The position numbers were made by a program, and so were the translations under genes. Under the pieces are notes generated by a model. That model was not told the origin of the DNA and did not search any database. It saw nothing but the letters and a program-made list of their open reading frames with translations. Of a stretch of DNA of 64,000 bases, positions 48,338-48,804 are shown one piece after another (the stretch's first letter is position 1; each line of letters begins with the position of its first letter). The stretch is from Marivivens niveibacter (lineage in GTDB: Bacteria > Pseudomonadota > Alphaproteobacteria > Rhodobacterales > Rhodobacteraceae): positions 1 through 64,000 of the forward strand of contig NZ_MSPP01000008.1 in assembly GCF_002150005.2 (NCBI RefSeq). The letters are read 5' to 3'.

Positions 48338-48495
48338 CGGCAGGTCTCCTGACTTGCGGCTTTGACGCTTGGCTGGCCTTCCCGGGGTGACCCAGTGGCG
48401 ATTCAGCTATGCTTGCCGCTAACAGTTGCGGGGGCAGTGCCAGATTTACACTGGCTTCCCTCTTAGCCCGTGTGAATCACGGGAACCTTAGCAAC
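48338..48495 (-). ncRNA. cobalamin (B12) riboswitch controlling nrdHIEF
   Basis: Read on the minus strand the region contains AAGGTTCCCGTGATTCACAC at its start, the core ACTGCCCCCGCAACTG, the GGGAAGGC block and the B12 box AGTCAGGAGACCTGCC (complement of 48339-48354). The spacing is that of a full adenosylcobalamin aptamer. It lies 114 nt upstream of nrdH in the same direction. No U-tract follows between the aptamer and nrdH, so control is probably at translation or by a non-canonical terminator. The expected logic is repression when B12 is plentiful. Confidence 0.95.
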
Positions 48496-48500
48496 ATCAT

Positions 48501-48528
48501 CTAGATATTTTTGTTCACACTTCGTCAA
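48501..48528 (-). promoter_or_regulatory. candidate nrdHIEF promoter
   Basis: Read on the minus strand, TTGACG (complement of 48523-48528) is a good -35 and TCTAGA after 17 bp a weak -10, placing transcription start just before the riboswitch. A DnaA-like 9-mer sits in the spacer. Confidence 0.45.
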
Positions 48529-48559
48529 TATTTAGTTTTCCACAATCGCCTGTGGGTAA
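48511..48559. promoter_or_regulatory. cluster of three DnaA-box-like 9-mers between the two riboswitches
   Basis: TTTTCCACA (48536-48544) fits the consensus TTWTNCACA. TTGTTCACA (48511-48519) and, on the other strand, TTACCCACA (48551-48559) each deviate at one position. Three such sites in 49 bp upstream of a ribonucleotide reductase operon suggest DnaA control, as known for E. coli nrdAB. The remaining sequence of the divergent region (48560-48639) shows no further clear motif and no good consensus promoter for the plus strand. Confidence 0.45.
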
Positions 48560-48639
48560 AATTTTTCCGTGCCGATTTTGCACCGTTCAGGTCGTTTTCG
48601 GGCCAATCGCATAATCATTAGGCTGCTATCGTATAGGCG

Positions 48640-48804
48640 TAAGGTGCGGGCCCACGGGTCCGAGAATTGGGAAGCCGGTTCAAGTCCGGCACTGCCCCCG
48701 CAACGGTAACTAGATTTAGGCGCGGCGACATACCACTGGGGAGGAGCCGGGAAGGTGTCGCGCTAGGGTTCGCCCCAACTAGAAGTCCGGAAACCAGCCT
48801 TGCT
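48640..48804 (+). ncRNA. cobalamin (B12) riboswitch controlling gbcAB
   Basis: The plus strand carries AAGGTGCGGG, GAAGCCGGTTCAAGTCCGGC, the core ACTGCCCCCGCAACGGTAAC (48691-48710), GGAGCCGGGAAGGTGTCG and a B12 box AGTCCGGAAACCAGCC (48784-48799). This is a complete second aptamer, of a somewhat different sequence class from the minus-strand one. It lies 120 nt upstream of the Rieske oxygenase gene. The leader 48805-48924 holds G-C-rich inverted segments and the AGGAG site at 48913-48917 but no obvious U-tract, so translational control is likely. Confidence 0.95.

Follow-up and report, generated by a model that had tools for sequence, protein, structure and literature searches.

Upstream of nrdH on the minus strand and of a gbcA-like gene on the plus strand, a contig of Marivivens niveibacter carries an intergenic region in which two operons of very different function begin back to back. 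The question that it raises is whether both operons are headed by cobalamin riboswitches and, if so, what a ribonucleotide reductase (RNR) and a betaine oxygenase would have in common under such control. The original prediction, made from the first 64 kb of this contig (the window), held that two complete, divergent B12 aptamers are present. A covariance-model search of both strands bore this out, as exactly two cobalamin matches at or above the gathering threshold were found in the 64-kb window (cmscan, Rfam 15), both of them spanning the full RF00174 model (1-189) and scoring far above its gathering score of 31.5 bits. The aptamers and the genes behind them are the following:

48322..48505, minus strand: cobalamin aptamer of the nrdHIEF leader, with canonical B12 box (RF00174, 134.5 bits, E 1.1e-33)
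48625..48816, plus strand: cobalamin aptamer heading gbcAB, of the gbcA subtype AATTGGGAA / CGCAACGGT / CCGGAAACCAGCC (RF00174, 99.6 bits, E 1e-23)
48003..48224, minus strand: nrdH (TIGR02194, 97.4 bits, cut-off 85.75)
47579..48004, minus strand: nrdI (TIGR00333, 157.7 bits, cut-off 74.65)
45459..47597, minus strand: nrdE, class Ib RNR alpha subunit (TIGR04170, 1226.6 bits, cut-off 750)
44483..45451, minus strand: nrdF, class Ib RNR beta subunit (TIGR04171, 484 bits, cut-off 355)
48925..50151, plus strand: gbcA-like Rieske oxygenase of the glycine betaine monooxygenase type (NF058607, 512.6 bits, cut-off 670)
50155..51228, plus strand: gbcB-like reductase (NF058606, 363 bits, cut-off 500)

The aptamers point apart on opposite strands, with 119 nt between their 5' ends instead of the roughly 145 nt first estimated. 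A common core and a B12 box had been announced for both; the CTGCCCCCGCAAC core is indeed shared, whereas the box of the plus-strand aptamer is the non-consensus CCGGAAACCAGCC in place of the usual CAGGAGACCTGCC. The two sequences are 55% identical, belong to different clades (see below), and each is closest by identity to its own kind (nrd or gbcA) in other genomes; as had been suspected, they are not a simple inverted duplication, and such an origin of the pair is ruled out by the low identity and the separate clades. Two genuine, separate cobalamin riboswitch leaders thus lie back to back between nrdHIEF and gbcAB. The window genome (3.07 Mb, 99.92% complete) has three RF00174 matches in total, the third being upstream of a btuB-like TonB-dependent receptor gene whose best NCBIfam match is a B12-receptor model, below the cut-off of that model.

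The operon behind the minus-strand aptamer, in the order nrdH-nrdI-nrdE-nrdF, is a class Ib ribonucleotide reductase, with its four genes above the curated cut-offs. For the plus-strand operon the gene names need the suffix “-like”, since both products stay under the cut-offs of the equivalog models, and the operon looks more like one for glycine betaine N-demethylation than for the methylamine catabolism proposed at first. The GbcA score is in line with those of nine other GbcA homologues scanned, from Halomonas, Salinicola and Marinomonas among others (458.8-525.1 bits, all under 670). GbcAB is known from Pseudomonas and Chromohalobacter (PMC12478193, available part); the window shares this gene pair, and its GbcA is 63-65% identical to Halomonas and Salinicola loci (65% to that of Halomonas almeriensis), whose proteins likewise fall under the equivalog cut-off.

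Besides these two operons, the window genome encodes B12-dependent counterparts. There are two class II RNR genes (PRK07562, 2196.6 bits, cut-off 1737; TIGR02504, 600.3 bits, cut-off 399.95), one MTTB-family methyltransferase (784.4 bits), a canonical metH, a row of MtgE-like (PRK07534, 612.2 bits, cut-off 338), MtgC-like and DUF1638 genes, and, placed elsewhere, an MtgD-like gene (NF005719, 403.9 bits, cut-off 259). The MtgC-like gene reaches 195.9 bits with NF047996 (cut-off 370) and is named from its homology and its MtgE-like and DUF1638 neighbours. MtgC and MtgD are required for betaine demethylation and methionine synthesis in Ruegeria pomeroyi, according to the part of PMC12478193 available; with the MtgBCDE system described there, the window genome shares MtgB/C/D/E-like genes and DUF1638, and it adds a switch-borne gbcAB and a canonical MetH. 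Given the class II RNR genes and the MtgB/C/D/E-like genes, both switch-borne operons look like B12-independent substitutes for B12-dependent enzymes present in the same cell.

The most likely reading, which we consider probable, is consequently that two independent leaders coordinate a B12-free backup, both operons being expressed when corrinoid is scarce and off when it is plentiful. With little ligand, each leader would let its own operon be expressed, so that the B12-independent class Ib nrdHIEF would replace the two class II RNR enzymes, and the O2-dependent, B12-independent gbcAB betaine monooxygenase would replace the B12-dependent MtgBCD route; with ample ligand, aptamer folding and an L5-L13 kissing loop would stabilise P13 and translation would be shut. 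Repression by B12 is what we infer from this gene logic. The Streptomyces nrdABS genes encode a B12-independent isozyme under B12-riboswitch control. The same holds for metE (PMC9600662, available part), and repressing corrinoid riboswitches of isozymes are known (PMC10653944, available part). The logic is the same as for metE and Streptomyces nrdABS, the B12-free isozyme being off when B12 is present; the window differs in that the targets are a class Ib nrdHIEF and a catabolic betaine monooxygenase.

Simple genomic predictors of this control were sought in a family sample of 295 genomes from 294 genera, and two of them found no significant support, which counts against the backup reading. 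Presence of the MtgBCD route does not significantly predict a gbcA switch, as MTTB is found in 25/25 genomes with the switch and 32/37 without (p 0.076), and a standalone MtgC, scored by eye, in 23/25 and 33/37, respectively (p 1.0). Nor is nrdHIEF supported as a marker of lost B12 synthesis: CobN is absent from 13/35 genomes with nrdE vs about 79/260 of the others (p 0.44), the latter figure being approximate because the family count (203/295 above cut-off) used a stricter E limit and split CobN genes (e.g., in G283) can be missed. The window genome itself has no CobN match, and the sole genus-mate sampled (G117) has a CobN match, no nrdE and a gbcA without switch, a single contrast that proves nothing.

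In corrinoid riboswitches the L5-L13 kissing loop stabilises P13, and translational ones add a hairpin on the ribosome-binding site (RBS; PMC10653944, available part). Both window leaders resemble RF00174 riboswitches in their full-model scores, in the C-rich core of L5 and in having a hairpin of the P13 type, and one of them has a further candidate helix:

48304..48318, minus strand: P13-type hairpin of the nrd leader, 5-bp stem and a loop rich in G (GGAGG) that faces the C-rich L5
48814..48828, plus strand: P13-type hairpin of the gbcA leader, ACCGC-GGGCG-GCGGT
48875..48925, plus strand: possible RBS-sequestering helix before gbcA, 48875-48883 with 48914-48925 (predicted structure, gapped)

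The P13 hairpin of the nrd leaders is conserved by pairing. In an alignment of 18 of the 19 leaders (L122 was omitted, its leader being identical to that of L070), 97.7% of 88 cells are paired and 19 cells show two-sided changes; the covariation score (0.525 vs 0.222), the paired share and the number of two-sided cells were each reached by 0/500 shuffles, and of the five measures taken over the whole structure, two did not exceed shuffles, namely the number of pairs with two-sided changes and that of further pair types. The P13 hairpin of the gbcA leaders is highly similar in sequence across 26 aligned leaders, out of 35 rows from which false core matches, unclear geometries and the second row of one locus had been dropped. 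As regards the mode of control, an ungapped RBS-sequestering helix finds support in the nrd leaders taken together, with p below 0.05 in 7/19 (2e-6 when combined, the sequences being related; mononucleotide shuffles; the 19 rows are 18 distinct ones here and in the RBS-access and TTGAC analyses), and the window's own nrd leader gives p 0.81 by the same shuffles. With P13 forced, the predicted mean RBS access drops from 0.42 to 0.34 over the 19 nrd leaders, and almost not at all in the window. Among the 19 of 26 aligned gbcA leaders used for this test, one was below 0.05, the window (0.67) not rising above mononucleotide shuffles, and the mean unpaired probability predicted for its gbcA RBS region is 0.27. 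The search for Rho-independent terminators yielded nothing convincing: none between nrd aptamer and start, one weak match in the gbcA leader (48855-48869) and one in the spacer, which makes two in the whole region vs a shuffle mean of 0.9. RBS sequestration in the window leaders is plausible but weak, and the leaders may act at the level of translation.

The gbcA-side aptamer deviates from the RF00174 consensus by U-A in P3, G-C in P6 and a GGAAACC box, and these deviations are not peculiar to the window. A FastTree built from 71 aptamers places every gbcA aptamer in one clade (support 1.0), apart from the nrd and other aptamers; the nrd aptamers are not a single clade, two of them falling among other aptamers. 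For the 68 of these 71 aptamers that could be parsed, U-A replaces A-U in P3 in 27/28 gbcA aptamers (A-U kept in 37/40 others), G-C replaces U-A in P6 in 27/28 (U-A kept in 39/40 others), and GGAAACC replaces GGAGACC in J6/3 in 27/28 (GGAGACC kept in 38/40 others). Positions were placed by the Rfam structure line, and the names J6/3, P3 and P6 also follow the usual nomenclature of this riboswitch; the region presumably contacts the ligand. As exact strings, the signature AATTGGGAA + CGCAACGGT + CCGGAAACCAGCC occurs in 25/25 gbcA leaders vs 1/95 other sites (p 6e-25, kinship ignored); this count covers every RF00174 site listed, 120 in total, for the 25 genomes in which gbcA has a switch. One or more two-sided changes affect 17/37 RNAalifold-predicted pairs of the 25 gbcA aptamers, and the RNA is therefore under structural selection. 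The gbcA leaders are, in short, a conserved cobalamin-aptamer subtype of their own, and for this reason the statement that the two operons read the same vitamin remains a proposal.

This subtype is the basis of the first alternative, namely that gbcA aptamers constitute a variant class that prefers another ligand (a different corrinoid form, e.g., methylcobalamin, or a related compound), so that the two operons would read different signals. The association of the signature with gbcA, the single clade, and the location of the changes, which affect J6/3 and the pairs that close P3 and P6 and are compensatory within pairs, all speak for it. However, no single core change is exclusive to gbcA aptamers: the AAA of J6/3 is found in 6/86 parsed non-gbcA aptamers, including the signature-bearing L227, and the alternative P6 and P3 pairs also occur outside gbcA (107 of 120 sites parsed); furthermore, the L5 core and the overall layout are intact. 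Gene-wise look-alikes are also found elsewhere. Seven sites (L163, L179, L220, L233, L237, L238, L250) with the unusual RF00174 core AATCGGGAA, no CCCCCGC loop and the box CAGAAGACCGGCC each lie upstream of a BluB-like frame (by eye), another gene-specific group, which makes linkage-specific drift plausible. We therefore regard a changed ligand preference as unlikely, and its narrower form, an undescribed variant class sensing another corrinoid state, e.g., methyl- and not adenosylcobalamin, as slightly less likely still. If true, the pair would read the cofactor of the class II RNRs and that of the methyltransferase route separately in one cell. As a separate observation, L227 (G270:C15:264082-264270) is the one site of the 120 at which a gbcA-type aptamer is not linked to gbcA, and precedes a 90-aa frame.

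A second alternative gives weight to the divergence itself: the promoters might interact, or an upstream regulator might lead, such as NrdR or DnaA on the nrd side and an activator on the gbcAB side, with the riboswitches only trimming expression. Candidate promoter and activator elements of the region are:

48500..48528, minus strand: putative sigma-70 promoter of nrdHIEF, TTGACG, with a -10-like element at the aptamer 5' edge
48570..48599, plus strand: weak candidate for a gbcA activator site, judged by eye against GTCKBTTT-N-KGTCGC of other gbcA promoters

A generic consensus promoter scan of the region found no promoter. TTGAC lies 91-107 nt ahead of the L5 core in 19/19 nrd leader rows (18 distinct), and the putative nrd promoter therefore abuts its aptamer; instead of the one short shared control region that had been envisaged, each operon has a leader of its own. 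Upstream of gbcA, GTCKBTTT-N-KGTCGC, a motif picked post hoc, is found in 13/81 regions vs 0/81 in one shuffle, and, when one mismatch is allowed, the looser TGTCGCAA in 50/81 vs 14/81 shuffled regions. In favour of the second alternative, this activator-type motif is enriched with and without switches: six loci have it ahead of their switch, and seven loci lacking a switch have it immediately ahead of the gene; the window's gbcA upstream region has no match to GTCKBTTT-N-KGTCGC, the likeness there being loose and by eye. The 119-nt spacer also contains the palindrome TTTTCCACA-N-TGTGGGTAAAA (48536-48561), which resembles NrdR or DnaA sites; this assignment was dropped, the palindrome not being conserved, by eye, in other nrd leaders.

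The second alternative is weakened by the divergent pairs of other genomes. In the 73 genomes that have nrdE, gbcA or both, five RF00174 pairs within 1 kb are divergent (nrd|gbc in two cases), three are tandem and none is convergent. Were the sites placed at random, about 0.06 divergent pairs would be expected, a figure based on 258 listed sites in 72 of the 73 genomes and a genome size taken as 4.1 Mb, and valid for genomes with nrdE and/or gbcA only, not as a whole-family background rate. The partners opposite nrdHIEF differ: gbcAB in the window and in G092, a CbiM/CbiQ cobalt importer in G214, a periplasmic-binding protein gene in G215, and periplasmic-binding-like and FecCD genes in G002. 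A sixth pair, in a Pelagimonas MAG, has a DUF4198 gene and what is, by eye, a cobalt importer opposite gbcAB. These six pairs rule out that the arrangement is unique. With such varied partners, spacers from 119 to 377 nt and no shared motif demonstrated, a role of the divergence itself appears rather unlikely.

What recurs in the family is the link between nrd and gbc. The nrdE gene occurs in 35/295 genomes, with an RF00174 site within 1.5 kb upstream in 30/35, although the site of G149, at 29.2 bits, does not reach the gathering score. A further genome, G118, has its nrd switch at a greater distance because a MetE-like gene (PF01717) sits within the longer nrd operon (L123:3205-4299, minus strand). 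There are 66 gbcA genes in 62/295 genomes, 25/66 with an RF00174 site within 600 nt upstream and 41/66 switch-free. Both genes occur together in 24 genomes vs about 7 expected (odds ratio 12.7, phylogeny ignored), and are neighbours in six of these 24. Two of the six, the window and G092, are divergent with two switches, three are tandem (G026, G088, G118), and G161 is divergent with a switch on the nrd side only and another gene between. Among 80 named loci fetched with GbcA, which overlap in part with the family genomes (G088 and L070 are, by length, the same contig), eight have nrd genes near gbcA: convergent in Shimia (2) and the Pelagimonas MAG (only nrdF before the locus end), tandem in Salipiger (2), and divergent in Paracoccus (3). 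The three Paracoccus loci (L106, L107, L111) share the divergent nrdHIEF/gbcAB layout and have no RF00174 match at the gathering threshold, which implies that B12 control is not needed for nrd-gbc linkage. The divergent nrd-gbc layout was thus encountered again in the family (G092, the Paracoccus loci, G161), and nrd-gbc linkage recurs in several geometries. In a quick GbcA tree the nrd-linked genes sit in separate branches, and the gbcA switch needs 6 changes vs a shuffled mean of 20 (L044 and L055 scored as switch-free in spite of their aptamers; L121, 31 aa and badly cut, dropped). That two ordinary switch-controlled operons are chance neighbours, their adjacency not selected, is improbable given this recurrence across geometries and GbcA-tree branches, even if switch-bearing nrd|gbc pairs are rare (2/73 genomes) and the only genus-mate sampled lacks both nrdE itself and a switch on gbcA. 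Under the coordinated B12-free backup, nrd-gbc adjacency would be one of several layouts that keep the backup set together.

With regard to the literature, searches covering the titles or abstract starts of the papers listed and few subscription journals found no divergent B12 switch pair, no gbcAB as B12-switch target, no nrdHIEF with a B12 switch, and no gbcA-type variant cobalamin class. The prediction that no divergent pair of this kind has been described may hold for the literature, whereas the layout itself recurs in other genomes. Tandem or contiguous riboswitches likewise place two switches close together (PMC12452182, available part), and the window pair differs in being on opposite strands and in separate transcripts; the main text of that source, in its available part, contains no word starting with divergent, opposite, strand or bidirectional. 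The available part of PMC12478193 names gbcAB, and its single use of “riboswitch” is in a cited reference, which concerns a glycine-activated one. As far as this search shows, the principle is ordinary, and the gbcA target and the conserved gbcA aptamer subtype are new. If the backup reading is right, an O2-dependent betaine monooxygenase joins the B12-free substitute enzymes of bacteria, and the breakdown of a major osmolyte of the sea would be tied to vitamin supply in a family that also uses the B12-dependent MtgBCD. The locus moreover offers a natural aptamer pair in one intergenic region, in which a consensus core can be compared directly with an altered but conserved one to learn how core changes determine corrinoid preference.

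Two further loci touch on methionine synthesis. In G118, a gbcA-type switch precedes gbcAB and the split metH that comes after it. In G092, a cobalamin riboswitch (L117:9049-9250, plus strand) lies directly after gbcAB and upstream of a split B12-dependent metH, an odd position for a B12-dependent enzyme.
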